A stretch of 37,573 bases of DNA, taken from the NCBI GenBank assembly GCA_020355945.1, contig CP070627.1:6993632-7031204 (forward strand), given 5' to 3'. A model generated the notes under the pieces. The model ran no database searches. It had not been told where the DNA came from and saw only the letters and a list, made by a program, of their open reading frames with translations. The translations under genes and the position numbers were made by a program. This DNA is from Candidatus Aminicenantota bacterium. Lineage in GTDB: Bacteria > Acidobacteriota > Aminicenantia > UBA2199. Below are positions 7,140-33,286 of the stretch, in pieces; positions within the stretch are counted from its first letter, which is position 1; every line of letters begins with the position of its first letter.

Positions 7140-8285
7140 CTAATTTTTACAGGTAGTTGTTTTCGAATATCCTGCGATTCGTTCTTTCACCTGTTCCACC
7201 GTACTGCCCCGGGATTGAACAAAGTTGATAAAATCCCGGTCATTAACGGCCTCAAAGGCCTGGTTAATAAAATTTCGATTGAGCTCCAGGGTATAATCCT
7301 GGAATTGCTTCTCTATATTACCAGAAAGGTTTGCATGGATATCCAGCATTTTTACCGGCGTTTTACAGGATAAATCAAAGGATTTTAAGTCAACATACCG
7401 AACATTTTTGCTTTTTGCTGTTTTGATGTAGGCCTTTAAATTTTTCAAATCGCAGAGAAAGGACCACTGGGTGCCGCCCCTGTTCATTTGGTCAAGAATC
7501 TTAAAACCATAATCTATTGCAGAATCCTTAGATTGATTAAAGTTTTTCAGCATATAGGCTGCATGAACAAAACGGGGCGTTTTTTGGTCTTTTAAAGAAA
7601 TGGGTTTTTTACCGCCAAATCCCTCAAAAGCTTTCAAGGTCTTCATTTCTTCTTTATATTTGGTGTTACAAAGTACCGTTATTGGCAGATCTTTTCCTTT
7701 ATAAATGACAGGCTTACCTTCGAGAAATTCGATAACAGCGGCATTTCCCTGGCGGTCCGCGGTAAAAAAATGCCAATCCCAGCCATCCAGCATGATCTCT
7801 GATGTGCTCTTAATCACCTGGTCCACGGTTTCAAAATTGTCCAGCACATACTGCATCCAATGCACCATAAAAATCAATGGTTTTGAATTATCTACAGGAA
7901 AGCGTGTTCCCTGGAGTGTCATTTCTTCGATGTAAAGTCCTGCTTCATTCATGCCCCCGTCCGGGAAATCGCGACAAAAGGGATTAAAGGTAATAGAACC
8001 GTATTGGGACACCCAGGTTAAAGGTGGGGTGGAAGCGGGTTTGCCCGACAGGATTTCGTTCCAACTTTTTCCTTTTTTAAAGACGCCTCGTTTGTTGATA
8101 ACGATAACCCCGGGTATATGCATGGGCATACCCAGGTTATGGCCGGCGATAAGCGTGTTTCCTTTTTTGAGCAAGAAGGTTTGACACGGGAATCCATTGG
8201 TTGAAAACAACAAAAGAACAGCGCACATAACAGCCAGTATTACGGCGGGCTTGCTAAATTTTACTAAAAGGTATTTTTTAATCAT
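7140..8285 (-). CDS. Secreted Ntn-type linear amide C-N hydrolase (choloylglycine hydrolase-like), 381 aa
   Basis: The family cleaves linear amide bonds such as those in bile salts, penicillin V or N-acyl amino acids, with an N-terminal Cys nucleophile freed by processing. Seen: from the chosen start MIKKYLLVKF a typical signal peptide (AVILAVMCAVLLLF) leads to GFPCQTFLLKKGN, where the Cys after the signal is the expected nucleophile; GHNLGMP and LCNTKY blocks follow. I choose the ATG at 8285 rather than 8318 because AGGAGG lies six bases upstream of it. The leader carries the CTGTGGCTAAAAAA motif shared with two other genes here. The protein is probably periplasmic. Substrate is unknown. Confidence 0.75.
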   Translation of the reverse strand: MIKKYLLVKFSKPAVILAVMCAVLLLFSTNGFPCQTFLLKKGNTLIAGHNLGMPMHIPGVIVINKRGVFKKGKSWNEILSGKPASTPPLTWVSQYGSITFNPFCRDFPDGGMNEAGLYIEEMTLQGTRFPVDNSKPLIFMVHWMQYVLDNFETVDQVIKSTSEIMLDGWDWHFFTADRQGNAAVIEFLEGKPVIYKGKDLPITVLCNTKYKEEMKTLKAFEGFGGKKPISLKDQKTPRFVHAAYMLKNFNQSKDSAIDYGFKILDQMNRGGTQWSFLCDLKNLKAYIKTAKSKNVRYVDLKSFDLSCKTPVKMLDIHANLSGNIEKQFQDYTLELNRNFINQAFEAVNDRDFINFVQSRGSTVEQVKERIAGYSKTTTCKN

Positions 8286-8319
8286 TTTAGCCTCCTTTTT
8301 TTTAGCCACAGGCTTCACA
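8286..8319 (-). repeat. CTGTGG-type leader repeat next to the ribosome binding site
   Basis: On the minus strand, CTGTGAAGCCTGTGGCTAAA is followed by an A-run and AGGAGG just before the ATG at 8285. Nearly the same arrangement precedes the Hsp70 gene (18521-18571) and the M20 peptidase (27631-27664). Confidence 0.6.
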
Positions 8320-8942: not shown

Positions 8943-9263
8943 ATGACAAATAATAAAACACCAGGAGAATCAAGAAATCAAATCACGATCGTGGGGCCGA
9001 TTTCAGGGAATACCAGGGCCTTAAAGCGGGATATTATCGAGGATGTGGTTGATGTTTCTCATCTGCGTGAAAGTTTTTCCGGGTTTATGACCAGTCTCCG
9101 GGAAATTGTAGGCATTGATGTGCCGTCCACCGGCTCCTATGAGTTGGAGGAAATCCAATTTTCGGCGGAGATATCGGCGAACGGTGATTTTAAACTATTG
9201 GGAACCGGGGTGGGCCTTGAAGCTAAAGGTGGGGTTACATTTACTTTAAAACGAAAAAATTAA
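8943..9263 (+). CDS. Small Pepco/Trypco-like conflict-system protein, 106 aa
   Basis: The C-terminal half has the pattern of the small 'peptidase-co-occurring' domains: ELEEIQFSAEISANGDFKL followed by a glycine-rich LGTGVGLEAKGGVTFTLKR end. As known for Pepco/Trypco domains, such proteins sit next to, or fuse with, proteases and NTPases in bacterial conflict systems, probably as adaptors. I assign the family by this pattern only. Start at 8943 follows GGGAG eight bases upstream. It is the first gene of a six-gene plus-strand cluster and is 36 bases from the tubulin-like/CHAT gene. There is no signal peptide, so it acts in the cytoplasm. Confidence 0.6.
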   Translation: MTNNKTPGESRNQITIVGPISGNTRALKRDIIEDVVDVSHLRESFSGFMTSLREIVGIDVPSTGSYELEEIQFSAEISANGDFKLLGTGVGLEAKGGVTFTLKRKN

Positions 9264-9299
9264 TGTTCGATTATCAAGAATTATTGTTGGTGAATTAAA

Positions 9300-12200
9300 A
9301 TGGCAATACCAGCATTGCTAATCGGCTTAGGTGGAACCGGCCAATGGGTTCTTACCTATTTGAAAAAGGAACTCTTAAATTATAACAATGAAGATTATAT
9401 TCCCAAAGAAGTAAGACTTTTGGCTTTTGATACGGAACGGGTGATTGAAGAAGAAGCCATCACTTTAACAGGTGTGAGCCTGGATACATATGAGTTTTAT
9501 CGCCTGGGTGGAAATATTGAGAAAATTGTTCGGGAAGTTGCTGAAGAAAATATGCATCCCCATATCACCTCGTGGCTTCAGGCGAAAACGTACATTAACC
9601 GATTGAGTGCCGGGCAGTATATGTTAGAAGAGGGAGCTGGCAATATGAGGCCCTTTGGTCGAATGGCTTTGTTTAAGGATCTAGAATCAAATCCTGAGAA
9701 TTCCAAAATTTTTAGTGCAATACGTGATGCAATCCAGGATATCCGCATTGAAATGAAAGAAAATCGAAGTATAGAAATATATATCATTTCCTCTTTGGCC
9801 GGGGGAACAGGTGCTGGTATAGCGATTGATATTGCCCATATTGTGCGCACCATTGCTGAAGAGACAATCAGCTCACAAAATTTTATAATATATGGTTTTT
9901 TTGTTTTACCATCTGCGTTTCAACTTTTACCTGGTGGTGATAATGCTGAAATGAGAGCTAGAGGGTTTGCTGCCCTTCGTGAGTTGAATCGTTTCATCAC
10001 TGTTTTTGGTGACCGGGAATATCCAATGATCTATAATCTGCATCCTCAATTCAGGAGATATATGCAAAAACCAATAAAAAAAAGGCTATTTGATGCGTGC
10101 TATTTAGTGGATGCCCGTCGTGAACGAAACACCCTTATGGACATTGAGCCAAAATTTGGCGTCTTCCCATCAATCGCTGATGCAATGATGGTATTACTGG
10201 ATGAAAAGAGTGGACAGGATTATACTGAGCACCTCATTAACATGATGCCTATGTTCACCAGGGGGGATGATGCAGCCTATTTTAATGCCATTGGAACATA
10301 TACTTTTGTACTTCCCATAAGTGACATTGTCGAAGAAAATAACTGCAAACTGGCTATTGATTTTTTAAAACGGTTGGTTCCACCCGAATTGGATAATAAC
10401 GGACAGATTAATAAACTCTCTTCAACTCAAAACCAAGAAATACCTGGAAAACGGGGCAGAGATTTGGTGGAAAACTTCATGAGAAAGCCATGGACTATTG
10501 AAGAATTACAGGGCACATTGTACTTATCGGAAGCGGTAAAACTATTGGAACAGGGTGGTGTTGGAAATAACCAACTACTTGAAGAGGCTGCAAGTAGAAA
10601 TTATTGGTGGTGGGGATTTATAGTACCTGATGATGACACTGAGGAAATCAAAAATTTACGTGCTGAAGTTCACTCTATACTGGAACACTCTTTGATTAAA
10701 AATGTAGAAACCTCTCGAGGATTAAAAGAGAAAGTTGAATTCGGATGTGAGCGAATTGAAAAGGAAGTAGAAGAATACCTGGGCAAATATTTAGGGAAAA
10801 AACAGACAGGGGAAAGCAATTCCAGTGGCAAATTTCATGATGCACTGGATCGTTACGCATCATTTCATATTGGACGATTTCAAAAGGCACTTGGGGGATA
10901 TTGCATTAAGCTACTCAATGGAACCGCATACAATAAGCCTGAAGTATCAAAAGGCGGAAAACTGGGATTTGTCCGGGAATTTTTAGAAGGACTTTCTCAA
11001 CAGATTGAAGCATTTTGTAAATTTATGGAAAAAGTGAGCGAAATTCGTTTTCGTGAAAGGCATTTGTTTTCAAAACAACAAGAGGTTCGAAAGTCCAGGA
11101 GCCAGATGTTTGAAAAATGCAAAAAAGCCAGACGCTTTAACAGGGCTGCTTATGGCTCTCAAGTAGCATATCTAAAAAAGATGGAAGAACTGGTGGAACT
11201 GCAGAAAAACGAGCTGCTTTTTGACTATGTTTATCGGATTGCACGCCGCTTTAGAGACCATACGAATACAGTCCGAGAGAGTATTAATGACTGGGCAAAA
11301 GCACTTGTAGTGGGATCAGAAGAGCAGCCCAGTTTATATGATTTACTTAATAAAAAATTGCAATGGATCAAAGAAAAACGTCAGCAAACAAAAAATTTTT
11401 CCAGGGTTCGTCATGAAGAAACCGATGATGAATTTGAGCAAAAATTATATACTCGAATTGCAAATCAAGAGCTTTCTAATATGTTCAGGGGTGTGTATTG
11501 GAAACTGAGTGAAGATGGTAAAACTGTGGCGCTCGAAGTATTTGGAGAGGAGCTTTTATGCCAGAGAATCAAGGATCAAGACCGCGACACTGAACATCAT
11601 AATGTAGGAACCATTCTTAAAGGAACACGACGGCCCGTCCAACGATTGATTCATGAAGAAACGATTGGTAAACGGTTAATGAACCGATACAACGATGAAG
11701 AATTGGCAAAAAAACTTTACGAAAATGGCTGCCCATTGATAAATTTTTTTAAGAAACCAGTATTCGGACAAACTACAAATTTTCTTGCTGTTCAGCATGG
11801 GATTACACAAGGAGATGAGCGTTATTTTAGAGAGGTGGCAGAAAAAATAAGTTATATGACAGGGACAGGGGGCAGAGGGGTGAAATTATCGCAATACCAG
11901 AACGCCCATAAATGTACCATGATATATTCTATTGATGTAATAAATGTAGATTGCTTGACCGCCTATGAAGATATGGCAAATGCATATAAACAATATTTAG
12001 ATGATCGACGGCTTCTTCATATCTTCCCTGCGGAAGTTAATGCCGCATATTACGAACAACAGGTTCAAAACAGATTGAATGAGGAATACCGGTTGTTCAA
12101 TCCACGCATTGTGTTTATATTGGAATATAAGGACCTGGTAAAACTGTTTACACGATGTATGGTATATGATATTATTAAGTTAGTCAATGATGTGGAGGGA

Positions 12201-14468
12201 AATTCTTTTTGGAGTCTTCAATTACCCAAATGTGAGCATAAAGGGAAACTATATAAAGATGAAACCATAGAACTAACCCCACACACACCAGGCAAAGCTG
12301 ATTTCCATAGGGCAATGCATACCTTTGTTTTCAAACAAGAAGATTTCAGAGAGGATTTTGAAACTTTCATTCAATATGACCATGTTGATAAGGCATTGAT
12401 GTTAGCGGAGGAGAAGGTAGGGGATGAAGCCGAAAATATCGATAAACTCAAATCAAAAACAGATTCCGATCTCATTCGAGATTTAAAGAACTCTAATCCA
12501 GGGTATGAGCAGGATCTGGGTGATTTAATGCATATAATGATCCTGGAAGAAATCGATCGATTATCTGAATTAACGGAGAAAAAAACCACAACCTATCACA
12601 TGGTCCTGATGGTTACCCCAAATATAATCGCTGTGGGCCAGAAACTAACACTAAGAGTTGAAATCCGACCTGGAATGTTAGAGAAAAATTCCTTTAAACT
12701 AAGCAGGGACATTCCCGAGCTTTACTGTTTCGTTGATGTTGATGGTCTCCAACTGGTAGGTGATGAAGTGGCTGCAATCCCGCGAGATCCGAAAACCGGT
12801 CATCCAATCCCCGTGGAATTTGAATTACAAGGCCATGTGCAGGGAAAACAAACATTCACCGTTGAACTCTTTTTTGAAGATAGCGAATCAAAGCGATTAC
12901 ATATTATCAAATCCAACAGCCAGGTCAGCGTAGTTGCTCCAAAACCCACCCAGGAACCACAAGTTATCTTACCTCAAATCGATATCCGCGTTGCACCCCA
13001 ACCTGATTTCTTACTCCAGGTGGAGTCTAATATAAAATATAAAACCGACATTCGTTATTATCAAGTCGCCTTAAACTACCGTTTAACCAGTTATCTCCCT
13101 GAGGTCCGCTGTAAACAGGATAAAGTCGGAGAAGTCGTATTGAATTCCACAGAACTGCAATATTTCCGAACGATGATAAACCAAGCCATGGGACAAATCA
13201 CCAATGCTCAACCGGAAGATATAAGGCAGAGAATGCTTTCGCTGGGAACCTATCTTTTTGATCGGCTTTTTCCACCGGATACCACAGGGAAATTCCGTAC
13301 GATGTTTTGGAAAGTCAGAGATCAAATCAACACGTGGTTAATGATTGAGGATGTAATTAAAAATGGGGTCAACTGGATACCCTGGGAATTGGTTGTACCT
13401 TATGGAAAAGGCGAAGATTCTTCTCTATCATTCCTGGGGGAACGATATCATTTAAGCCGCTGGGTCAATGGATTGGGCACCACTCTCTATGGAGAATTCC
13501 CTTTTGGTGATATCGCTTTGATTGATTATAAACACCAAACTGTTTCAGAGGGTGAAGAGCACTCAGAAAGGATAGCCTGGCAGCGCAGATTAAATGCCCA
13601 TAAGGCCAGGCACCTTCGAGAAGTGGTTCAACCGGAAACTCCTGTTTATGCTGTACATTTATTACGCTATGCCGAGCAGATTAGCCGGCGAGAAATTGTC
13701 GATCGGGATCAAACGGACCGAAGCGAAGAAGTATCTCCTGAAGAAGACGCCCAACAGAGGGCGAAACTGGATATTAAACTCAAACGTCCCGTTATCACTC
13801 TTAGCATTCTCAATCAAAACAGCATTCATTCCTCCGTCACTCTTCATGATGTAAGTCTTTCTGATCGGGTATTACCTTTTTTACGAGCTGGTGCCAGCGC
13901 CGTGATTTGTCCCTGGTGGTCAACCAGCGAAGCCGCTGATCAAGTGTTTTGGAACACTTTTTACGATTTGTTGGAACGTCGTGTTCCACTTGGCGAAGCA
14001 GCACTGCGGGCGCGATTGTCAGTGAGAGATGCTTTTCCCCATCTTGCCGATTGGCTGGCTTATAGTGTTTTTGGAGACCCACGGGCGCGGATCTATAGGC
14101 CGGAAGACAGCCAGGGATACACTGCCCTGGAATGTCTGTCTCCTGATAAATATTTGCGTCCGGGAAAAACCTACTCTTTCCGGGCAAGCATCAGTACTTT
14201 TCCACCAGTGGGTTTTAAAGGGCGGCTGGTCAGGTCTTCAGCTTTACCGGATGAGGTTCAAGCCCTTTTCTTAGCACCGGGATTGCAGGAAAAAATACCG
14301 GAACCTATTCCAATGGTCCCAATCAATCCCGGTGGAACGATACGTGAAGCAACGCAGCAATTTAAAGCCCCACAATTTCCCGGCAAATATCCTATCTTAG
14401 TACAATTCTTTGCAGACGAAGAACATATAAAAACATTAAAATTAATGCTTAGCGTTGACTACGACTAA
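9300..14468 (+). CDS. Giant tubulin/FtsZ-like GTPase fused to a catalytically degenerate CHAT domain, 1722 aa
   Basis: Domains in order: residues 1 to about 380 resemble the bacterial tubulin-like family (Tubulin_2), with IGLGGTG at 8-14 and the tubulin signature GGTGAG at 168-173, which bind GTP phosphates. A long, mostly helical, charged middle region (about 400-1080) follows, then a beta-rich section (about 1090-1230), then a CHAT-type caspase fold (about 1240-1610) with WIPWELVVPYGKG, the late LRAGASAVICPWW block and the closing FGDPRARIY. A short beta-rich tail ends the protein. Where active CHAT domains have HFxCH and LNAC, this one has VHLLRY and LNQN, so Tyr1457 and Asn1507 replace the catalytic His and Cys: a pseudoprotease. 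No strong ribosome binding site is seen. It may polymerise or scaffold the active CHAT protein encoded next. Confidence 0.85.
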   Translation: MAIPALLIGLGGTGQWVLTYLKKELLNYNNEDYIPKEVRLLAFDTERVIEEEAITLTGVSLDTYEFYRLGGNIEKIVREVAEENMHPHITSWLQAKTYINRLSAGQYMLEEGAGNMRPFGRMALFKDLESNPENSKIFSAIRDAIQDIRIEMKENRSIEIYIISSLAGGTGAGIAIDIAHIVRTIAEETISSQNFIIYGFFVLPSAFQLLPGGDNAEMRARGFAALRELNRFITVFGDREYPMIYNLHPQFRRYMQKPIKKRLFDACYLVDARRERNTLMDIEPKFGVFPSIADAMMVLLDEKSGQDYTEHLINMMPMFTRGDDAAYFNAIGTYTFVLPISDIVEENNCKLAIDFLKRLVPPELDNNGQINKLSSTQNQEIPGKRGRDLVENFMRKPWTIEELQGTLYLSEAVKLLEQGGVGNNQLLEEAASRNYWWWGFIVPDDDTEEIKNLRAEVHSILEHSLIKNVETSRGLKEKVEFGCERIEKEVEEYLGKYLGKKQTGESNSSGKFHDALDRYASFHIGRFQKALGGYCIKLLNGTAYNKPEVSKGGKLGFVREFLEGLSQQIEAFCKFMEKVSEIRFRERHLFSKQQEVRKSRSQMFEKCKKARRFNRAAYGSQVAYLKKMEELVELQKNELLFDYVYRIARRFRDHTNTVRESINDWAKALVVGSEEQPSLYDLLNKKLQWIKEKRQQTKNFSRVRHEETDDEFEQKLYTRIANQELSNMFRGVYWKLSEDGKTVALEVFGEELLCQRIKDQDRDTEHHNVGTILKGTRRPVQRLIHEETIGKRLMNRYNDEELAKKLYENGCPLINFFKKPVFGQTTNFLAVQHGITQGDERYFREVAEKISYMTGTGGRGVKLSQYQNAHKCTMIYSIDVINVDCLTAYEDMANAYKQYLDDRRLLHIFPAEVNAAYYEQQVQNRLNEEYRLFNPRIVFILEYKDLVKLFTRCMVYDIIKLVNDVEGNSFWSLQLPKCEHKGKLYKDETIELTPHTPGKADFHRAMHTFVFKQEDFREDFETFIQYDHVDKALMLAEEKVGDEAENIDKLKSKTDSDLIRDLKNSNPGYEQDLGDLMHIMILEEIDRLSELTEKKTTTYHMVLMVTPNIIAVGQKLTLRVEIRPGMLEKNSFKLSRDIPELYCFVDVDGLQLVGDEVAAIPRDPKTGHPIPVEFELQGHVQGKQTFTVELFFEDSESKRLHIIKSNSQVSVVAPKPTQEPQVILPQIDIRVAPQPDFLLQVESNIKYKTDIRYYQVALNYRLTSYLPEVRCKQDKVGEVVLNSTELQYFRTMINQAMGQITNAQPEDIRQRMLSLGTYLFDRLFPPDTTGKFRTMFWKVRDQINTWLMIEDVIKNGVNWIPWELVVPYGKGEDSSLSFLGERYHLSRWVNGLGTTLYGEFPFGDIALIDYKHQTVSEGEEHSERIAWQRRLNAHKARHLREVVQPETPVYAVHLLRYAEQISRREIVDRDQTDRSEEVSPEEDAQQRAKLDIKLKRPVITLSILNQNSIHSSVTLHDVSLSDRVLPFLRAGASAVICPWWSTSEAADQVFWNTFYDLLERRVPLGEAALRARLSVRDAFPHLADWLAYSVFGDPRARIYRPEDSQGYTALECLSPDKYLRPGKTYSFRASISTFPPVGFKGRLVRSSALPDEVQALFLAPGLQEKIPEPIPMVPINPGGTIREATQQFKAPQFPGKYPILVQFFADEEHIKTLKLMLSVDYD

Positions 14469-14484
14469 TCAGTGGAGGAATATA

Positions 14485-15675
14485 ATGGCGAATACGATGA
14501 GCGTTTACGGTACGATTCCTTCAAAAGAGATATGCAAACATAGTCCTCAAAGAATTGATATCCAAATCTCTAATGGCAATGCACCATATGTTTCAATTGA
14601 ACTTAAACCTTTCCCTATTACTTTTTCTCCCGGAGATGTTAATAATCTAAACGATCGATTCATTGGTATCCTGGAAGATTTACGATTGGATGTACAAAAG
14701 AAAGGCATTGATCTTACAGGCTATAACCATGATTATCTCGCCCAACTACGCAATATTGGACGAGCAGCATATAATAAAATATTACCGGAAGAAGCTCATC
14801 GTTATATCAAAGATCTCGAGACCCGGGCCCGTGAAAAAAAGCGTAATCTAAGTTTAAACTTCATTATACCGTCTGAATTCTCCCTATTTTGGGAGATGAT
14901 CTATACTGGTACGCCATTTAAAATAGAACAAGATCAGTTCTGGGGATTTCGCTACCCAATCGGTCGTATATATTGGAGTCTTGAAAGAAAAGAAGATCTT
15001 GTTCATCTCCAGGAAGGAGTCTTTTCCGCCATCCATAATAAACTAAAGTACTCCAGGCAAGAGATTGAGGAGATTAGTAAATTCCTGGCTGTGCTCAGCC
15101 AGGATTTAGGATTAAATCTTGCAATAAAGCTGTTAGATGAGCTGATCCCTGCTAATTCATTATCATTTGAGAAGATGGTTGAGTTATTTCATAGTGAGGA
15201 GTTTCGTTATGGAATGGTTCATTTTGCCTGCCACCATGAGAATCCTGAGCAGGCTAGTGCTACACAGGCTTATCTGAGTATAACTTCTCATGAACAAGAA
15301 TTGGATATAAGTCTTGAACAAATATTAATGTGGAAAGGCTTTGGCTTTTGCAATCAACCCCTGGTATTTCTTAATGCGTGTGAGTCAGCAACCCCCGGGC
15401 ATCTTTTGCAAACCAGCAGTTTTCCATACGATATGCTTAATTTTGGCGCGGCAGGGGTTATTGCTACTGCTTGTACTGTACCCGATAGTTTTGCCAGCCG
15501 CTTTGCTGCTGAATTTTATCGACGCTTATTTAAAAAACCTTCTGCCAATAAACCAATTTATATCAGCGAATCGTTATGGGAAACCCGGCGTTATTTTTTA
15601 GAAAAATATAATAACCCGCTGGGGTTGGCTTACAGCCTCCATGCTGTTGTAGACCAACAACTCATATTTAATTAG
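14485..15675 (+). CDS. CHAT-domain (caspase-like) protease with intact active site, 396 aa
   Basis: CHAT proteins are clan CD cysteine proteases related to caspases and separase. Seen: VHFACHH with His250 and FLNACES with Cys299, the complete catalytic pair, preceded by a CHAT-like N-terminal half with a SEFSLFWEMIY block and followed by FGAAGVIATACTVPDSFAS and a LGLAYSLH end. The first 80 or so residues are a separate beta-rich region. I chose 14485 over 14455 because GGAGG lies seven bases upstream and no overlap with the previous gene is needed. It follows the tubulin-like/pseudo-CHAT gene by 16 bases, so they are surely co-transcribed. It is the likely effector of the cluster; its target is unknown. 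Confidence 0.9.
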   Translation: MANTMSVYGTIPSKEICKHSPQRIDIQISNGNAPYVSIELKPFPITFSPGDVNNLNDRFIGILEDLRLDVQKKGIDLTGYNHDYLAQLRNIGRAAYNKILPEEAHRYIKDLETRAREKKRNLSLNFIIPSEFSLFWEMIYTGTPFKIEQDQFWGFRYPIGRIYWSLERKEDLVHLQEGVFSAIHNKLKYSRQEIEEISKFLAVLSQDLGLNLAIKLLDELIPANSLSFEKMVELFHSEEFRYGMVHFACHHENPEQASATQAYLSITSHEQELDISLEQILMWKGFGFCNQPLVFLNACESATPGHLLQTSSFPYDMLNFGAAGVIATACTVPDSFASRFAAEFYRRLFKKPSANKPIYISESLWETRRYFLEKYNNPLGLAYSLHAVVDQQLIFN

Positions 15676-15690
15676 CTAAAAGGGCAGCGC

Positions 15691-16476
15691 ATGACAGATA
15701 TTCAATCCAAAATTAATCATTTATTTAACATTTTAAAAAGCCTTTTAGAACAAATTACTCCATTACGCCAGCAAGTGGAGACCCTGGAAAAGGAGCTCAC
15801 CTATGTACAGCGTGAATATGATCGGATAGTGGGTCCTTTTAATGCTGAAGCGGATCGCCTGGAAATTCTCAGATCGTCCCTTCGCGCACGTCTTGAACAA
15901 CCACGGTCTCACACGCCATCTCCAATTCCATCAACACTGCAGCAAGAAAAACCCCAACCACCTCAAACGTTAATGGATACTGCTAATTCCAACTCCTTAT
16001 CATCTCCTTCACCGTCTCCGCTCCCAGAGGACCCCCGAAGTAGACGCAAACGTTCCCTGGCGGATCATATCGATTATTTTGTGGCTACTGATGATCGGGA
16101 AACTGTGATGCAAGTGATAAATGCTGTTTTAGCAGATGATCATCGAGACATCGGTGATATGCTGGAACTTTTATCCTGGGGGGATATATGGACTGCCCGC
16201 CCTGATTGGGAGACTCCCGAGGAACAATATGTGCGACTTCAAAACTGGGAGTCTACTTTAAAAGAACGATTGGAGTACTGGCAAAACCGATTCCAGCAGT
16301 TAAAAGATGAGCCCCGGCAAGGGTTATTACAAGAAATGAAATCACGAAAGCCAGAGGAATGGTCGGTTTATCTCGATGAATTGGCCCGGAAACAAGAAGA
16401 ATACAACAAAAAACTCAGCCAGGAAGTTGATTTTCTGGAAAAAGAATTGGCAAAACAGTCAGAAAACGAGGATTAA
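15691..16476 (+). CDS. Coiled-coil protein of the tubulin/CHAT cluster, 261 aa
   Basis: I do not recognise a named family. Seen: an N-terminal coiled coil (about residues 5-68), a Pro/Ser/Gln-rich flexible linker (about 70-115), a central helical segment containing DDRETVMQVINAVLADDHRD (about 130-150), and a C-terminal coiled coil rich in Glu and Lys (about 180-258). There is no signal peptide or membrane segment. It is 15 bases from the CHAT protease and one base from the propeller gene, so the three are translationally coupled. An adaptor or oligomerisation role between scaffold and protease is an inference from shape and position. Confidence 0.75.
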   Translation: MTDIQSKINHLFNILKSLLEQITPLRQQVETLEKELTYVQREYDRIVGPFNAEADRLEILRSSLRARLEQPRSHTPSPIPSTLQQEKPQPPQTLMDTANSNSLSSPSPSPLPEDPRSRRKRSLADHIDYFVATDDRETVMQVINAVLADDHRDIGDMLELLSWGDIWTARPDWETPEEQYVRLQNWESTLKERLEYWQNRFQQLKDEPRQGLLQEMKSRKPEEWSVYLDELARKQEEYNKKLSQEVDFLEKELAKQSENED

Positions 16477-16477
16477 A

Positions 16478-18454
16478 ATGAAAAAAACCAGGTCAACCAC
16501 CAGGGAAATTAAACCCTATAGTAAAGAACTGGGTTTACGCCGTATTGCGATTCAACTGGAACAAGAAAGAACCCGACACCAGAGATTTTCTTCGACAAAA
16601 TTACCTTTCCCTGACTGGACCGGTTACAGCAGCCAACGACATATAAGGGATATCGCTTTTGATGCCCATCATCATTGCATCTGGCTGGCCACCTGGGGTG
16701 GGTTACTCCGATGGGAACCGGAAACGGATAGAATCACCCGTTACACCAGTGAACATGGACTATTGGGGAATGCAACCAACAGGATAGCAGTGGATCATAA
16801 AGGAATTGTTTGGGCTTGCGGTCATGGGTTTGGCCTTTTTTACCTATTACCAGACAAGGGCGCAAATTGGCAATCAATCCACCAATTTAACTCCTGGTCT
16901 ATCCTTTGCCTTTTACCTTGCCCGGAGTGTGGAATTTATGCTGCTTTACGCGATCTGGACGGACGCTCTGTGTTGGGAGTTCTTGAATCTCCCCAGGCTG
17001 ACTTAAAACTTTTACTAAAAAACAACCTGGCAAATAAAGACATTGATGCCTTAGTCATGGATACGGAAGGTGTCCTTTGGATAGGCAATGCCTGGGGACT
17101 GCATTGTTATATTAACCCGGAAAAGACTCTTCATTACGATCTGGATGGTGCCCGTGTACGGTCATTGGCAGCAGGTCTGGATGGAACCCTTTGGATTGGC
17201 AGTAATCGTGGTCTTTATGGTTTTCGTAAAGATAAAACTCCAACCCATTTCCAGGAAAAGGACTGGCCCGGGGATGAAGTGTTTGCACTTACTATGAATC
17301 CTGGAAGCGCGGATTTATGGGTGGTGACATCGCGGGAAACCGGGAAAATTTCAAACAACCGATGGCAAAAAATATATGACTCTCAACCCAATCGTTTGAA
17401 TGTCCTACTTACAACTAAAAATGATGATAAATCGATCACCTGGGGTGGTGGGGCTAACGGGCTATTTAAGCTTGGCTTACCCAAACTTGAAAAGGCATTT
17501 ACCTGGAGCCAGGCAGATGCGTTAAGTAACGCTGTCCAGTGCCTGGAAATTGATAATGATGCGCTGTGGGTGGGTACAGCCCGGGGACTATATCATTTTC
17601 AATTTGAATCTCAAGATTGGACAGATTATAATGCCGAAATACCTGGTCTTTTTCACGATGTACGAGCCCTTTTGCCTATACCTTCCAAGCATCGGGTATG
17701 GGTTGGCAGTTGGAGCAGTGGCCTGCGATCGTTGGTACATGGTTACGATTTACCCGATCCCCTGCTGCCTGCTGTTCCCATTGTTTCCTTGGCTGCCAGT
17801 GAAAATGGGATATTATGGGCAGCTACTATTGACATGATTTATTGGAAGAAACCCGATACCCAAACGTGGGAACCGGTACCGGGTGCTTTACCGGGCCAAC
17901 CGCCGAAAACATTAAATTTAGGAATTATCCAGGTAATTTGTCCCCAAATGACTGGCAGCGGTCAGGGTCTTTCCCGCACCACCCTCTGGATTGGCACATC
18001 CAATGGTTTATTGCGTTACCGGCCGGATGGTCCGGTCAATTGGGATTCACCCCGTGAATGGGGTGCGCCTTCTATCCTGGAACAGGATTCCATCCAGGCT
18101 CTAATTGTTGATCTAAATAATCGATTATGGATTGGGACTTCACATGGTTTGTATTGTCAACGTACCTGGAAGTGCTGCCGGGAAACCGATGTTCGTGCCC
18201 TGGCCTGTACATCGGAGGGAACGTTGTGGGTAGGCACCTCCACGGCCCTGGAAGAGTGGCACCTCCCCAAACGTACAACCAAATTTTCCGGGGAACCTAA
18301 AAAGCACTTTACTGTTAATAACTCCGGGATGGCTGCCAATAGGGTAACAGATCTAGCTCTTCGAGAGATCCACAGTGATTGCACGCGGGAAGTTTGGATA
18401 GGTTCGCCAAATGGACTGAGCTGCTATCGCTATCCAATATCCAGGGAAAAATAA
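16478..18454 (+). CDS. Cytoplasmic double beta-propeller of the two-component-regulator-propeller type, 658 aa
   Basis: The protein is made of repeats of the 'regulator propeller' kind. I count 13 blade motifs of the form LW(I/V)GTxxGLxxY, for example LWIGNAWGLHCY, LWIGSNRGLYGF, LWVGTARGLYHF and LWIGTSHGLYCQ, enough for two seven-bladed propellers. In typical relatives these repeats are the periplasmic sensor of a hybrid histidine kinase; here there is no signal peptide, membrane segment or kinase, so the propeller is free in the cytoplasm. The ATG at 16478 is one base after the previous stop; the longer in-frame start at 16376 would overlap the coiled-coil gene by 101 bases. Probable role: ligand or protein recognition for the CHAT system. 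Confidence 0.85.
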   Translation: MKKTRSTTREIKPYSKELGLRRIAIQLEQERTRHQRFSSTKLPFPDWTGYSSQRHIRDIAFDAHHHCIWLATWGGLLRWEPETDRITRYTSEHGLLGNATNRIAVDHKGIVWACGHGFGLFYLLPDKGANWQSIHQFNSWSILCLLPCPECGIYAALRDLDGRSVLGVLESPQADLKLLLKNNLANKDIDALVMDTEGVLWIGNAWGLHCYINPEKTLHYDLDGARVRSLAAGLDGTLWIGSNRGLYGFRKDKTPTHFQEKDWPGDEVFALTMNPGSADLWVVTSRETGKISNNRWQKIYDSQPNRLNVLLTTKNDDKSITWGGGANGLFKLGLPKLEKAFTWSQADALSNAVQCLEIDNDALWVGTARGLYHFQFESQDWTDYNAEIPGLFHDVRALLPIPSKHRVWVGSWSSGLRSLVHGYDLPDPLLPAVPIVSLAASENGILWAATIDMIYWKKPDTQTWEPVPGALPGQPPKTLNLGIIQVICPQMTGSGQGLSRTTLWIGTSNGLLRYRPDGPVNWDSPREWGAPSILEQDSIQALIVDLNNRLWIGTSHGLYCQRTWKCCRETDVRALACTSEGTLWVGTSTALEEWHLPKRTTKFSGEPKKHFTVNNSGMAANRVTDLALREIHSDCTREVWIGSPNGLSCYRYPISREK

Positions 18455-18520
18455 AGTGATCTTGAAAATAACACTCACAAAAGTACTGGTTGGCAGGGAG
18501 AACAGGGCAAATTCCCAAAA

Positions 18521-18571
18521 ACTCTCTGTGAACTCTGTCCTCTCTGTGGCTAAAAAATTAAAGGAGAAAAT
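18521..18571 (+). repeat. CTCTGTG leader repeat and ribosome binding site of the Hsp70 gene
   Basis: Three spaced copies of CTCTGTG/CTCTGTC/CTCTGTG lead into GGCTAAAAAATTAAAGGAG directly before the ATG. The same leader style is found before the Ntn hydrolase and the M20 peptidase genes. I see no promoter in the 117 bases between the propeller gene and the Hsp70 gene, so read-through from the cluster is likely. Confidence 0.6.
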
Positions 18572-20365
18572 ATGACCAACATAATTGGAATCGATCTTGG
18601 TACCACCAATTCGAGTGCGGCGGTTTGGCGTGATGGGTCACCGCATATGATCCCCAGTGCTGATGGAAGTTTTGTAACCCCATCAGTGGTGGCCTTTGAT
18701 CCGGAAAAAGAAGAATGGGTGGTGGGGCAAAAAGCTAGGGATATTTTGCAGCAAGATCCCTGGCATGTGGTAAAATCAATCAAACGCTTTGTTGGCCGCC
18801 GCTTTCGGGGTAAAGCATTTCAAGAGGAGTTGGAAAAACTCCATGTGTTGTATAAAGTCGAAGAATCTAGCCAGCGTAGAGGTGGAATCGATGTGGTTTT
18901 GGGCAGCCGTCATTTAACTCCCCAGGAGGTCTCTGCCAAAATACTACAAAAAATTAAGTCAGATGCAGAGATATACCTTGACCAGGAAGTCACTGAAGCA
19001 GTCATTACCGTACCTGCTTATTTTAATGCTTCCCAACGCCAGGCCACTCGTGACGCTGGCCGTATCGCAGGTTTAGAGGTAAAACGAGTCCTGAACGAAC
19101 CTACCGCAGCTTGTTTGGCCTTTGGCTATAAAAAGCTAGCGGAAGAGAGGAAAACAGTGGCAGTTTATGATCTGGGAGGGGGGACATTTGACATTTCTAT
19201 CCTTGATGTGGGCCGCGGACCATTCCGAGTACGGGCCACCAATGGTAATACTCTTTTGGGGGGCGATGACCTGGACTGGATGATCTTAAATTGGGTTTTA
19301 GACCAAATAGGTGAAACTGAAAAAGAAAAATTAACCAAAGATGTGGTTGCCCAGGCACGCATACTCGCTGCTGTTGAGCAGGCCAAAATAATCTTATCTG
19401 AAGACGGAGAAGCCATGGTAGAAGTACCTGGACAACTGAGTCCTACCTGCCAGTTAAATGATCTGGCTTTGAAACTGACAAGAGCGCAATTGGAACATTT
19501 ATCCGAATCCCTTATTGAACAAACACTGGAACCCTGTGGTCAAGCGCTTCATGATGCTAAACTTTCCACCTCTGAAATCAAGGAAGTTTTGATGGTGGGG
19601 GGACAAACCCGAATGCCAGCGATTCGTCATGCTGTGAAAGAATTTTTTGGAATCGAGCCCAATATTAATGTCAATCCTGAGGAAGTGGTGACCCTGGGTG
19701 CGGCTGTTCAAGCCGGTATCCTTGCCGGTGACACCATTGGCATTGTTCTCTCTGACGTGGTACCCCTTACCCTGGGTGTGCGAGCCCAGGGCGGCCTGAT
19801 GGACACCCTGATCCCCCGTAACACTGCAATACCGATACGTAAAACCAAAATCTATACCACCACTACTGATGATCAGGACTCGGTTGAAATCCGGATTTAT
19901 CAGGGAGAAAAACCGCATGTGGCAGATAATGTTAAATTGGGTTCCTTTACTTTAAGTGGCATCGAACCTGCCCCTGCCGGACAACCGGAAATCGAAGTAA
20001 CCTTTCAAGTGGATGAAAATGGTATTTTGCATGTAAGCGCAAAAGATATCTATACCGAACAAGTTCAAGAAATAGATGTCGATACGGTGCAATTGAGCGA
20101 CAATGAAATCAAAAAAATGATCCAGGATGCTGAAAAGCATGCGGTTGAATATGCGAAAAAACGACGCCAAATTGAATTAAGACAACAAGCCGAACAACTA
20201 TGTAGCCGTCTTAATCATTTGTTAGTGGAAAAAGGATCAAACTTAAGTGCAGAACTTGTTACTGCCATTCAAAAAGTCCAGGATATTCCCACTGAAAAAA
20301 ATTTAGAACCATATATTTCTGACCTGCGTGATTTATGGCGAAAAGTAAACGAGGCTGTTCAATAA
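18572..20365 (+). CDS. Hsp70-family chaperone (DnaK-like) of the tubulin/CHAT cluster, 597 aa
   Basis: An ATP-driven chaperone. Seen: GIDLGTTNSSAAV at the N-terminus (phosphate loop 1), AVYDLGGGTFDISILDV (phosphate loop 2), VLMVGGQTRMPAI (adenosine motif), the interdomain linker DVVPLTLGV, and a substrate-binding beta domain ending ENGILHVSAKD. The helical lid is short and charged and the usual flexible C-terminal tail is absent, making it about 40 residues shorter than housekeeping DnaK. No dnaJ or grpE is in the window, so this is unlikely to be the main DnaK operon; I therefore give no gene symbol. Its position suggests it folds, disassembles or activates the tubulin-like/CHAT complex. Start supported by AAAGGAG. 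Confidence 0.92.
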   Translation: MTNIIGIDLGTTNSSAAVWRDGSPHMIPSADGSFVTPSVVAFDPEKEEWVVGQKARDILQQDPWHVVKSIKRFVGRRFRGKAFQEELEKLHVLYKVEESSQRRGGIDVVLGSRHLTPQEVSAKILQKIKSDAEIYLDQEVTEAVITVPAYFNASQRQATRDAGRIAGLEVKRVLNEPTAACLAFGYKKLAEERKTVAVYDLGGGTFDISILDVGRGPFRVRATNGNTLLGGDDLDWMILNWVLDQIGETEKEKLTKDVVAQARILAAVEQAKIILSEDGEAMVEVPGQLSPTCQLNDLALKLTRAQLEHLSESLIEQTLEPCGQALHDAKLSTSEIKEVLMVGGQTRMPAIRHAVKEFFGIEPNINVNPEEVVTLGAAVQAGILAGDTIGIVLSDVVPLTLGVRAQGGLMDTLIPRNTAIPIRKTKIYTTTTDDQDSVEIRIYQGEKPHVADNVKLGSFTLSGIEPAPAGQPEIEVTFQVDENGILHVSAKDIYTEQVQEIDVDTVQLSDNEIKKMIQDAEKHAVEYAKKRRQIELRQQAEQLCSRLNHLLVEKGSNLSAELVTAIQKVQDIPTEKNLEPYISDLRDLWRKVNEAVQ

Positions 20366-20455: not shown

Positions 20456-21787
20456 ATGAATAAGAAGGATTTTCCAGAAGGAAAAATAATTTTTGAAATC
20501 GAGTCGCTGGGCCCAATGCGGGAGAGCATTATAAATTTTAGACCTTTCTTATTGTTTTCAGGGGAGAGTAACACGGGCAAAAGTTACACAGCCATGGCTG
20601 TGTATTACCTTTTCTATATGCTGGATAATGAAAAAATAATCTCAGAACTAACACCTAAACTATTCAATATTAAGAAGATTGAAAATGAATTAAAAAGCAA
20701 AAAAGAGATCCAGGTGGATTTTCCCAAAAAATTGCCAGGAGAACTGGAAAAGCTTTATAATAATAATATCAGCCGTTTTATGGCTTATATTTTAGGTTAT
20801 GATGAATTCTCATGTAAAGTAGTGTTAAAGTTGAACATCCCACTGGACACTAACTGTAAAATTCACATCTCTCTCAATAAAAAGAAAAATGGGAACCAGT
20901 TTCTTGCTATAGAAGGAAACTCCGTTGGTGTTATTTCAAATATTACATCATCCGACAAAATAAAGAAATTAGAAGATGCTCTAAATAACTGGTTTTACTC
21001 TTCTTTAAATCGTATTGTTTTTGGAAAAGATATCATCCGCAAATTTCTATTACCTCCGGCACGAGGTGCTTTTAGCGGATTGACGCCATCGATGTGGAAA
21101 CATTTCTCAGGGATTGGGATGTATAACGAATTCCTGGAAGGTATTGACAGCGTGAGATTCAGTGATTTTGATATACCTGAACAACTCGAAGTACAGAAGA
21201 AATTGATCAATCCTTTGTTTGAAAAGCTTTTGCAAGGGAAAATAATGATAGAAAGAGATAAAGCTTCATATACAATTTCCAGTTCAAATAAAAAAATTCC
21301 ATTGTCTGCCGGTTCATCTTCTGTAAAAGAACTTTTCCCATTATATCTTCTATTAAACAGGGTGCTCATCGACGAAATTTCAGTCTGTATCGAAGAACCC
21401 GAAGCGCACCTGCACCCTGAATTGCAGCGCAGTACAGCACTGCTTTTATCCTACATCATCAACCACGGTGGATTTGTCCAGGCTACTACTCACAGCGATT
21501 TTTTTGTTAACCAGGTCAATAACCTCTTAAAACTTCATTTCTTAAAGAATAAAGAACACCATCGGTTTTTGACCGCTTTAAAAGAAACCGGTGTCCAAAG
21601 AGAATTCGTGTTAGACCACCATGATCTGGGCGCTTATTATTTTGAGAAAAATAAGGATGGCGTTCATGCCAGGAAACTTGAAGTGTCTGAAAAAGGGATA
21701 CCACTGGAAAGTTTTAAACATGCATATGAACAATCAGTAGAAGAGACCAGGAATTTGCGAGAGGCATTAATAGAAGATGCAGAATGA
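20456..21787 (+). CDS. AAA/SMC-like ATPase (OLD-type fold, no nuclease domain), 443 aa
   Basis: Seen: Walker A GESNTGKS (residues 36-43), an ABC-type signature-like LSAGSSSVKELFPL, Walker B VCIEEPEAHLHPEL (from residue 310) and the switch His in ATTHSDFF. This is the ATPase architecture of OLD/RecF-type proteins used in many phage-defence modules, where it senses DNA ends or phage components and licenses an effector. It carries no TOPRIM domain itself. The next gene overlaps it by 11 bases and encodes a putative nuclease, so the pair is likely one functional unit. The gene has its own promoter and is separated from the Hsp70 gene by 90 bases, so it may be an independent module. Confidence 0.85.
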   Translation: MNKKDFPEGKIIFEIESLGPMRESIINFRPFLLFSGESNTGKSYTAMAVYYLFYMLDNEKIISELTPKLFNIKKIENELKSKKEIQVDFPKKLPGELEKLYNNNISRFMAYILGYDEFSCKVVLKLNIPLDTNCKIHISLNKKKNGNQFLAIEGNSVGVISNITSSDKIKKLEDALNNWFYSSLNRIVFGKDIIRKFLLPPARGAFSGLTPSMWKHFSGIGMYNEFLEGIDSVRFSDFDIPEQLEVQKKLINPLFEKLLQGKIMIERDKASYTISSSNKKIPLSAGSSSVKELFPLYLLLNRVLIDEISVCIEEPEAHLHPELQRSTALLLSYIINHGGFVQATTHSDFFVNQVNNLLKLHFLKNKEHHRFLTALKETGVQREFVLDHHDLGAYYFEKNKDGVHARKLEVSEKGIPLESFKHAYEQSVEETRNLREALIEDAE

Positions 21788-22451
21788 AAAACTGGAAAGT
21801 CAATTATTAAAACTCTTTTCTCAGCCCACCAGAAAAACAAAAGAGGATTATTTAATCGAGAAAGTCGAAGGCACTCATCTTACGATTTATGAAAAGGAAA
21901 AGAGCGGAGAATATCAAGTTTCATTTAAGAATGGCTGTTTTATCCGGTTCTCCGAAAAAATGCTGGGAACCAATAAAATCATCGCTCTTTTTAACAAGAG
22001 ACAAGGGGATGTCATGCGGAGAATATGTGACGGAATTTTCCTGGCACGGTTAAACGACAAAATCATTCTTTGCCTGGTGGAACTTAAAAATAATATTAAC
22101 AATAATTTTGAGAGAGCGATCAAACAAATTGAAGGAAGTTATCTAAAAACAGCCATGCTATTAAGTCTCTTGTGCAATATAAAAGAAATCGAACTTAGAG
22201 TCTTTATTGGTGATGGGCTGGAAAAAATAGTTGATGATCCCGATATTGATTACCTGGAAAAAGTAGAAGAGTTTAGAGAAAAAGCTGATAACCTGGAATC
22301 AAAACTAAAAGAATTTTCTCATAAAAGGGAAGTACAAATAAATTTTCCTTTTTTCCTGGGAGATTCAATTCATGAAAGTTATCAAAAGAAAGATATAAAC
22401 GTGTACCACCTACAACACGGAGATACCTTTGATATGCAAATTTTTAATTAA
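21777..22451 (+). CDS. Putative PD-(D/E)xK nuclease partner of the ATPase, 224 aa
   Basis: I recognise no named family. Seen: CDGIFLARLNDKIILCLVEL with Lys104 next, giving Asp85, Glu102-x-Lys104 and a downstream Gln117 on a helix (AIKQIEGSY). That is the spacing and secondary-structure pattern (strand with Asp, strand with ExK, helix with Gln) of the restriction-endonuclease-like PD-(D/E)xK fold. The C-terminal part is helical and charged, ending in a short beta-rich segment. The start codon lies inside the last codons of the ATPase gene, which indicates translational coupling. A nuclease effector controlled by the ATPase is the likely role; the motif call needs structural confirmation. Confidence 0.6.
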   Translation: MQNEKLESQLLKLFSQPTRKTKEDYLIEKVEGTHLTIYEKEKSGEYQVSFKNGCFIRFSEKMLGTNKIIALFNKRQGDVMRRICDGIFLARLNDKIILCLVELKNNINNNFERAIKQIEGSYLKTAMLLSLLCNIKEIELRVFIGDGLEKIVDDPDIDYLEKVEEFREKADNLESKLKEFSHKREVQINFPFFLGDSIHESYQKKDINVYHLQHGDTFDMQIFN

Positions 22452-23904: not shown

Positions 23905-25527
<1,623 letters not shown>

Positions 25528-31398: not shown

Positions 31399-32016
31399 TT
31401 ATTTCAACTGTCTGAGAAAGTTAATTAAGGGCTGCAATTTTTCAGAATTAAAATTCCAATACCCTTTCTGTGCCGCCAGCCCTATGGAATTTGCAATCCT
31501 GGGTTTTGCTGCTAAGAATACTTGAACTTTGGCCTTTGAAATATTTTTAGGTCCTTCTGGTAATTTTTGGGAGCAAGCAATAAAATCGTCCACACACCTC
31601 ATTGCCTCGTGATCTTTAACAGATTCAAGGCAAAGGTCCTCAAGCATTCCTTTTGAAGAATTATCAGGCATGATGAAAACACCTAACGAGGGGCAGCCGC
31701 TGGAAAATTCACCTGGTCTTTTCGGTGATTGAAATCCTGCTTTTTTCAGGACCCCGGTTACACTTTTAAACGCATCTTTGGCATTTTCATCCGCATCACG
31801 GATAACAGCAATTTTTTCGATGTTTTTGAAGCCCGTGACAAACTTAAAACCTGGCATTAAATTTTTGAAATTATCTTTGCCTTCTGAACATCGTATATCA
31901 ACGCTATCTAAGATGCCGATATATTCCAATAATTTCTCGGAAAAATTGATTCCATCTTTTCCTTCAACCACCAGGAGCCTTTTTTTTGTAAAAAGTTTAG
32001 GAAGGGATTCAGGCAT
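31399..32016 (-). CDS. TOPRIM-domain protein, DUF3226-like, 205 aa
   Basis: The TOPRIM fold is used by topoisomerases, primases and OLD-type nucleases. Seen: LLVVEGKDG with Glu18, and VIRDADENA with Asp74 and Asp76, the Glu and DxD metal-binding elements. The remainder matches my memory of DUF3226 proteins, including GVFIMPDNSSKGMLEDL. Its start overlaps the stop of the upstream ATPase gene (TAATG), so the pair is translationally coupled. ATPase-TOPRIM pairs are a recurring defence layout (OLD split systems, and AriA/AriB of PARIS, where AriB is DUF4435). Nuclease action on host or phage nucleic acid is inferred, not shown. Confidence 0.8.
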   Translation of the reverse strand: MPESLPKLFTKKRLLVVEGKDGINFSEKLLEYIGILDSVDIRCSEGKDNFKNLMPGFKFVTGFKNIEKIAVIRDADENAKDAFKSVTGVLKKAGFQSPKRPGEFSSGCPSLGVFIMPDNSSKGMLEDLCLESVKDHEAMRCVDDFIACSQKLPEGPKNISKAKVQVFLAAKPRIANSIGLAAQKGYWNFNSEKLQPLINFLRQLK

Positions 32017-33095: not shown

Positions 33096-33200
33096 CGCAG
33101 CCTCCTGGACAATTTTAAATTGGCCATTACCTATTATAATATTTTTTTCAAAAGAATGAAAGCCCCCCATGAACCCAAAATCCACCATCAAAATATGTAA

Positions 33201-33286
33201 ACCACGAAGGACACGAAGGAAAAAAGAGTATCTAAACCACCCCAATGAAAAGCTTTTGGAAGTCCAGAAAGGGGCTGGCAGCCCCT
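33201..33286. repeat. CACGAAGGA tandem repeat and a GC-rich hairpin
   Basis: CCACGAAGGACACGAAGGA (33202-33220) is a two-unit imperfect repeat. AGGGGC-TGGCA-GCCCCT (33270-33286) is a 6-bp hairpin. Both lie in the 355-base gap between the divergent ATPase and QueG-like genes, which holds no gene I can support. Confidence 0.7.

Follow-up and report, generated by a model that had tools for sequence, protein, structure and literature searches.

The described systems closest to the locus analysed here fall on different sides of it. Proteases with the CHAT fold and its catalytic dyad are found in SAVED-CHAT (CalpL-type) and Craspase (TPR-CHAT/Csx29) systems, where, judging from Protein Data Bank (PDB) titles and abstracts, protease activity would depend on a partner that assembles or senses a target. 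In the main text of Kaur et al. 2020 (PMC7159879), the DO-GTPase/GAP1-N2 systems appear as conflict-type operons that recruit tubulin-family proteins or HSP70 beside variable parts, tubulin and HSP70 occurring in separate, non-overlapping themes together with DO-GTPase and GAP1; other systems of that paper hold caspase-superfamily peptidases, which could include CHAT, a word absent from the main text. FtsZ-like 1 (FtsZl1) tubulins are set, in Makarova and Koonin 2010 (PMC2875224), among vWA, kinase and phosphoesterase-type neighbours. The NLR/STAND immune ATPases provide a further point of comparison, since several of the proteins described below are NACHT proteins with recognition domains. 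The locus considered here lies in a 37,573-nucleotide stretch of contig CP070627.1 from a Candidatus Aminicenantota bacterium (hereafter the window) and encodes a tubulin-like protein, a CHAT protease, a beta-propeller and an Hsp70 side by side. It may be one of the NLR-like conflict systems that are polymorphic and use caspase-type proteases, in a combination of genes that itself seems undescribed. More specifically, we consider it probable that the locus represents one version, with a tubulin, of a polymorphic, NLR-like five-gene protease system, in which a pseudo-CHAT docks the CHAT protease and an exchangeable part triggers it.

Six adjoining genes on the plus strand, all confirmed as open reading frames (ORFs), make up the locus: (i) a Pepco-domain small protein of 106 residues (8943..9263); (ii) a protein of 1722 residues combining a Tubulin_2/FtsZ-like 1 part (residues 1-1097, 9300..12590) with a C-terminal module made of an Ig-like, a pseudo-CHAT and a second Ig-like region (residues 1098-1722, 12591..14468); (iii) an active-looking CHAT cysteine protease of 396 residues (14485..15675); (iv) a coiled-coil protein of 261 residues (15691..16476); (v) a Reg_prop beta-propeller of 658 residues (16478..18454); and (vi) an Hsp70 of 597 residues (18572..20365). 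Five of the families are identified by Pfam matches, those of the coiled-coil protein being weak only. Mechanical ORF calling starts the CHAT gene at a TTG codon (14455) and the propeller gene at 16376; by eye, we preferred the ATG codons at 14485 and 16478, which have a purine-rich stretch on their 5' side, and the former fits the database entry of the CHAT protein (P0044, 396 residues). With these preferred starts, the intergenic gaps amount to 36, 16, 15, 1 and 117 bases. A preliminary description of the window had reported these families and gaps, an apparent pseudo-CHAT at the end of the tubulin protein, an intact CHAT protease next to it and an Hsp70 without partners, and the results reported here bear it out on these points.

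Five of the six genes recur elsewhere as a unit. Out of 400 Chloroflexota genomes searched with the module as a query, eight gave a match, two of them a strong one (loci L032, taken as Herpetosiphon giganteus, and L033). In both loci, a protein ending in the module, a CHAT protease, a coiled-coil protein, a Reg_prop propeller and an Hsp70 are encoded on one strand, in the same order as in the window, by overlapping or closely spaced genes. Compared to their window counterparts, the L032 proteins are 40 (module), 43 (CHAT), 33 (coiled coil), 34 (propeller) and 54% (Hsp70) identical, and BLAST identities in L033 are 27 (module), 29 (CHAT), 23 (propeller) and 33% (Hsp70). In each of these two loci, a second peptidase follows the Hsp70, namely a clostripain C11 in L033 and, in L032, a caspase C14 that also matches alpha/beta hydrolase. 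Module, CHAT, coiled coil, propeller and Hsp70 are thus a well-supported constant core, found in constant order in three genomes from two phyla. Chance clustering is ruled out by the recurrence of the five-gene order in L032 and L033. A unit of all six genes, as the preliminary description had proposed, is ruled out as well, since the L032 and L033 genomes lack Pepco and their module proteins have no tubulin match. What stands of that proposal is that the five core families travel together in unrelated genomes; what does not is the inclusion of the tubulin (none of 13 tubulin loci has the other genes nearby, see below) and of Pepco (absent from both genomes). The system is not a tubulin plus five partners: the tubulin can be interchanged, and most of its relatives occur where the rest of the system is absent.

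The linkage between CHAT and propeller was also assessed more widely, albeit indirectly, by looking for proteins on contigs of equal size, using the best 120 of 267 CHAT relatives and 119 other propeller relatives (best 120 of 256, the window being excluded). Twenty of the 119 listed propellers lay on a contig of the same size as that of a listed CHAT relative, and they were concentrated among the highest ranks (12 ranked among the first 20, 19 among the first 40 and all 20 among the first 60; p 5e-9 in a rank test). None of 27 module-less tubulins, which served as a control, lay on contigs sized as in either list. Note that one matched pair (3,463 bases) comes from different sources and may be due to chance. 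The matched contigs bear the names Herpetosiphon giganteus, Scytonema, Competibacteraceae and Nitrospira; relatives of both proteins also occur in Nostoc linckia, there on contigs of unequal size. Likewise, P0003, a full-length relative of the tubulin–module protein, and the propeller P0165 share a contig size of 14,827, and three module/CHAT pairs (P0022/P0069, P0023/P0051 and P0024/P0155) are on equal-size contigs. Besides, five contig sizes (164598, 74446, 112244, 719435 and 15809) each have two listed CHAT relatives, which could reflect two systems or a CHAT pair.

The boundary between the tubulin part and the module emerges from a database search with the whole protein, which found 43 proteins. 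Sixteen of them (P0005-P0019 and P0021), with lengths of 1098-1103 residues, span only the first 63% of the query, and five (P0023-P0025, P0036 and P0037), with no tubulin domain listed, match at its C-terminal end only (30-38% of the query). Since the tubulins end before residues 1098-1722 and five proteins match only there, this region is a separate, transferable module. Its versions, assigned by alignment, Pfam matches and neighbourhoods, vary widely at the N-terminal side. The tubulin version is that of the window, of P0002 and P0003 and of P0004, a partial protein, and P0022 carries the module on a different tubulin with zinc ribbons. Elsewhere, the module is joined to NACHT and FGE-sulfatase domains (P0023), to NPHP3/NACHT and Macro domains with a sub-threshold TIR match (P0024), to NACHT and HEAT domains (P0025), to Macro proteins (P0036 and, according to a precomputed domain, P0037), to CHAT, WD40 and alpha-amylase domains with a STAND-like stretch (L032; PADLOC STAND_TPR, E 4.2e-5) and to a mostly unassigned protein of 1786 residues with a sub-threshold C25 match (L033). 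In Pfam searches, the NACHT/STAND ATPase is present in P0023, P0024 and P0025 and absent from the window protein. Note that the alpha-amylase/GlgB-like domain of the L032 protein (L032:11046-17744) sits between the WD40 repeats and the module and might be an odd recognition or decoy domain.

Given the alignment of the module with the CHAT proteins, its histidine is kept in 11 of 11 proteins and the catalytic cysteine, expected where the central strand ends, in none (0/11), so that the CHAT-like domain of the module is, as far as can be predicted from these residues, a pseudoprotease. The kinship of the module with the CHAT superfamily is weakly indicated by the window protein alone; it becomes apparent from its relatives, as P0036 passes the PF12770 cut-off inside the module (25.1 versus 24 bits) and the profiles of both module and CHAT are matched by a number of weak module relatives, L027 and L030 among them. 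The neighbouring CHAT protein, by comparison, qualifies as a predicted CHAT peptidase that looks active: it matches PF12770 (E 1.6e-13, 51.2 bits versus a cut-off of 24), and the dyad formed by C309 and H256 (numbered from the TTG start), the latter of which is the presumed catalytic histidine of the family, is kept in 27 of 27 CHAT proteins. Comparison with the PDB shows that its fold resembles those of Craspase, separase and the SAVED-CHAT filament.

CHAT was also sought in wider sets of genomes and in plasmids. The CHAT query matched 5 of 158 Chloroflexia genomes, among which only those of L032 and L033 have a CHAT-size ORF (423 and 471 residues), and 13 places in 12 of 396 Anaerolineae genomes; one short weak match was found in genome G001. 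Scans with the CHAT profile, run without a positive control, gave none in 396 Acidobacteriota and 369 Gammaproteobacteria genomes. Among plasmids, four records matched CHAT partially (27-36% identity, none covering 80%), and none matched the module. L035 and L036, which are among the weak module matches in Chloroflexota, have adjoining CHAT-like pairs; the stretch covered there contains neither a coiled coil nor a propeller nor an Hsp70, and these are possibly simpler CHAT/pseudo-CHAT pairs.

The N-terminal part of the window protein belongs, according to its Pfam match (PF13809, E 1.6e-43, 149.7 bits versus a cut-off of 27, residues 6-348 of 1722), to the Tubulin_2 (FtsZ-like 1) family. P0002 and P0003 display the same tubulin–module fusion and are 61 and 58% identical to the window protein over their full length, and the module-less relatives P0005-P0019 are 47-64% identical to the tubulin part. 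The tubulin part gave no match by sequence in the PDB. None of 13 tubulin loci from the genome_contigs set, several of which end at contig edges, has a CHAT, coiled coil, propeller or Hsp70 of the window type nearby. In one of these settings, L007, from another Aminicenantes genome, a module-less tubulin 61% identical to the window tubulin part stands in a row with vWA, kinase, weak-SH3, TPR-like and calcineurin-like phosphoesterase proteins (in the order vWA, tubulin, kinase, weak-SH3, TPR-like, phosphoesterase). The tubulin query matched four of 142 genomes of the class that includes the L007 genome, and only the latter closely. In a tree of 40 tubulin parts, the fused state takes four changes, all of them forced by starred branches, and these may reflect several fusions, several losses or an exchange among copies. 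Altogether, the tubulin is a guest that lies outside the conserved core, as one of several interchangeable N-terminal parts. Two further tubulin proteins deserve mention. In P0020, a tubulin belonging to the same clade is joined to TPR, NACHT, pentapeptide and WD40 domains. P0004 (Candidatus Aminicenantes bacterium), recorded as partial (1247 residues), is a second tubulin–module protein that ends within the module, and the size of its contig, 9,131,798 bases, is that of the window's contig.

The remaining core proteins are conserved to different degrees. The coiled-coil protein has weak, below-cut-off Pfam matches only; it shares 33% identity with that of L032 (phmmer, 1.2e-40) and is related to that of L033 by phmmer alone (E 9.6e-8). 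Its only PDB match, a weak one to a nanobody, was taken as chance. The propeller, a double one according to the preliminary description, matches Reg_prop (PF07494, E 3.9e-19), displays no signal peptide on inspection by eye and has, as its nearest solved relatives by sequence, the sensor regions of two-component regulators (e.g. 4a2l). The last core protein is a clear Hsp70 (PF00012, E 2.5e-191). In a tree of 12 Hsp70s, nine of which come from elsewhere in three genomes, the operon Hsp70s of the window and L032 are sisters with a support of 99/100 and stand separate from these nine, consistent with a system-specific Hsp70; that of L033 is too divergent to be placed. No Pfam match to DnaJ or GrpE was found among the scanned window ORFs, short ORFs being left out. 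Finally, Pepco (PF24393, E 5.5e-15, 56.3 bits versus a cut-off of 27) is best regarded as an optional accessory, present beside some CHAT genes: a Pepco gene lies directly 3' of CHAT in two Anaerolineae loci, L057 and L058, and is the sole Pepco match in either genome, while the search that gave none in the L032 and L033 genomes (0/2) was positive in both of two genomes known to have Pepco. None was found either in nine genomes of tubulin loci.

How does the locus compare with the described systems? Searches of the open-licence PMC literature brought up no description of this gene combination, and the locus fits none of the systems compared, in line with what the preliminary description had suspected. 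Like the DO-GTPase/GAP1-N2 operons, it sets proteins of the tubulin and HSP70 families beside variable parts; in contrast to them, CHAT is central and a P-loop GTPase is not seen in the operon. Indeed, among eight operon genes searched for a TRAFAC-type P-loop GTPase, the only GTPase match in Pfam was the tubulin; GAP1 had no Pfam match in the scanned window genes, its coverage by the Pfam models being unchecked. The neighbours of the L007 tubulin resemble those reported for FtsZ-like 1 in PMC2875224, whereas the window tubulin is fused to a pseudo-CHAT module and has none of the FtsZl1 partners: vWA and kinase were unmatched in the scanned window genes, although the same library found both in L007. 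Nor was MoxR matched in these genes, which sets the locus apart from the MoxR–vWA ternary systems. In SAVED-CHAT and Craspase systems the protease would be activated through other partners; here, the activation partner would be the pseudo-CHAT fusion, and SAVED, gRAMP-TPR and CRISPR components were unmatched in CHAT and the seven neighbouring genes scanned. As for NLR/STAND proteins, the window has a tubulin GTPase in place of NACHT and its protein is not a STAND protein. Accordingly, the labels DO-GTPase, MoxR–vWA, Craspase and FtsZl1 operon were ruled out, the core genes of those systems being missing.

A working scheme can be drawn from these comparisons. The pseudo-CHAT would pair with its active CHAT relative, thus tying the protease to the N-terminal part of the module protein. 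This part would be a sensor and/or an assembler driven by nucleoside triphosphate (NTP), that is, a NACHT ATPase in several relatives and a tubulin-like GTPase in the window. Its assembly would gather CHAT copies and activate the protease, much like a caspase activation platform. A role as scaffold, in trigger recognition or as a first substrate may fall to the coiled coil and to the propeller; Hsp70 could hold the complex inactive or dismantle it; and the second protease present next door in two of the three loci (caspase C14 and clostripain C11) might carry out a downstream step. The likely role would be immunity or programmed dormancy or death, to which we would add that both the immune role and the tubulin switching are inferred. 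We count in favour of this scheme that conflict systems are known to contain N-terminal parts of these types (NACHT, FGE-sulfatase, Macro, HEAT, WD40 and CHAT). The same slot repeatedly holds a putative NTP-driven assembler (NACHT in P0023-P0025; tubulin in P0002, P0003, P0022 and the window protein), suggesting that tubulin takes the place of NACHT. A more specific version, in which a GTP-driven tubulin filament replaced an NLR-like NACHT as the switch, gathers the pseudo-CHAT/CHAT pairs and fires the protease, with Hsp70 resetting the complex, is tentative, and we hold it to be somewhat doubtful. If these ideas are right, ATPase rings would drive a single conserved protease core in some bacteria, and tubulin polymers would drive it in others. 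Bacteria would then possess a modular platform for a death protease, in which the core (active and inactive CHAT, coiled coil, propeller and Hsp70) is fixed and the switches can be interchanged; a relative of tubulin would take part in signalling of the immune type; and the FtsZ-like-1 tubulins, so far unexplained, would be joined with CHAT proteases and system-specific Hsp70s in one machine. The five genes also provide a defined signature for genome surveys.

Could the same genes be explained otherwise? A dedicated Hsp70 is present in all three operons, the CHAT fold is near that of separase, a housekeeping protease, and CHAT also occurs in an anti-sigma factor in the PDB (8rot, DdvA), all of which would suit a regulator of proteostasis or cell state in which Hsp70 and a separase-like CHAT control the turnover of clients picked by the N-terminal part. 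This reading is weakened by the wide variety of N-terminal parts (NACHT, FGE-sulfatase, Macro and WD40) and by the patchy occurrence of the module in Chloroflexota, both unusual for housekeeping functions, and we regard it as unlikely. Alternatively, the locus might be a cytoskeletal or membrane-remodelling FtsZ-like-1 machine to which a protease was added, the tubulin being a true Tubulin_2 member with a close module-less relative in L007, a vWA–kinase–phosphoesterase locus of the kind reported in PMC2875224. However, vWA and kinase had no match in the scanned window genes, the module is accompanied by the other four core genes in loci that lack the tubulin, and no membrane partner was recognised, no dedicated transmembrane prediction having been run; the chances of such a machine seem slim. 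Slimmer still, in our opinion, are those of two unrelated abutting units, with a tubulin recently fused into a CHAT–propeller–Hsp70 operon and non-functional there. The step in guanine-plus-cytosine (GC) content inside the fused gene, from 38.9% in the tubulin part to 45.2% in the module part, and the scattering of the fused state in the tubulin tree would be expected in this case, but the same fusion is found in P0002 and P0003, and in P0022 the module is joined to a tubulin of another kind; this recurrence argues for a function.

Several observations weigh against the NLR-like protease system that we favour. Three operons only were read directly, the wider spread resting on equal contig sizes, and the coiled coil, propeller and Hsp70 of L033 are distant from those of the window. 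The six weak module matches in Chloroflexota have E-values of 1.4e-16 to 4.2e-9, and in five of their neighbourhoods (L034-L038, not G267), most of which end at contig edges, coiled coil, propeller and Hsp70 were unseen. The CHAT–Pepco neighbourhoods of L057 and L058, the two larger ones covered in Anaerolineae, have none of these three genes on contigs of 10,958 and 9,382 bases, and the other three Chloroflexia CHAT matches lie in ORFs of 763-774 residues. The six operon proteins had no significant match in PADLOC (best E 0.0089), no match of CHAT or the module to the viral_contigs set was confirmed, and the tubulin part had no match in phages. Regarding the switch, an NTP-driven one is not universal, because P0036, P0037 and L033 have neither NACHT nor tubulin; P0022 is a long branch in the tubulin tree; and, as reported in PMC2875224, some of the nucleotide-binding and filament region could not be recognised in the FtsZ-like 1 family. 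As to the pseudo-CHAT, the Pfam CHAT match of the window module (E 0.023) is below the cut-off, and hhalign of the module against the CHAT profile gives a probability of 2.5% (E 0.019 for one template). The AlphaFold2 (AF2) model of the module, built from a nine-row alignment, is fair to good at its ends and poor in its centre, residues 283-445 being unreliable; since the VIA-align rows span mainly residues 1-119, which are Ig-like, the CHAT-like part of the module is barely tested by fold.

The genes that surround the operon are of various kinds. On the 5' side, the nearest gene (7140-8318) is on the minus strand, 624 bases off. Promoter and terminator scans of the locus gave the same results as shuffled sequences. 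Directly downstream of the Hsp70 gene, on the plus strand, two overlapping genes (20456..22451) encode an AAA_15 ATPase of 443 residues, which matches PADLOC PD-T4-4_A (E 2.5e-37), and a protein of 224 residues with no PADLOC match and no clear family. Their GC contents, 36.3 and 33.5%, are below that of the operon; the pair could be a second, possibly separate defence pair or a downstream part of the operon. Farther away, a TCP-1/cpn60 chaperonin gene (PF00118) lies on the minus strand at 23905-25524, near the Hsp70 operon. Finally, at 31399-33245, also on the minus strand, a DUF3226 protein and another AAA_15 ATPase are encoded with a one-base overlap, with PADLOC matches to PDC-M38B (E 1.3e-16) and AbiLi/PDC-M38A (E 2.6e-58); they look like a separate defence pair.

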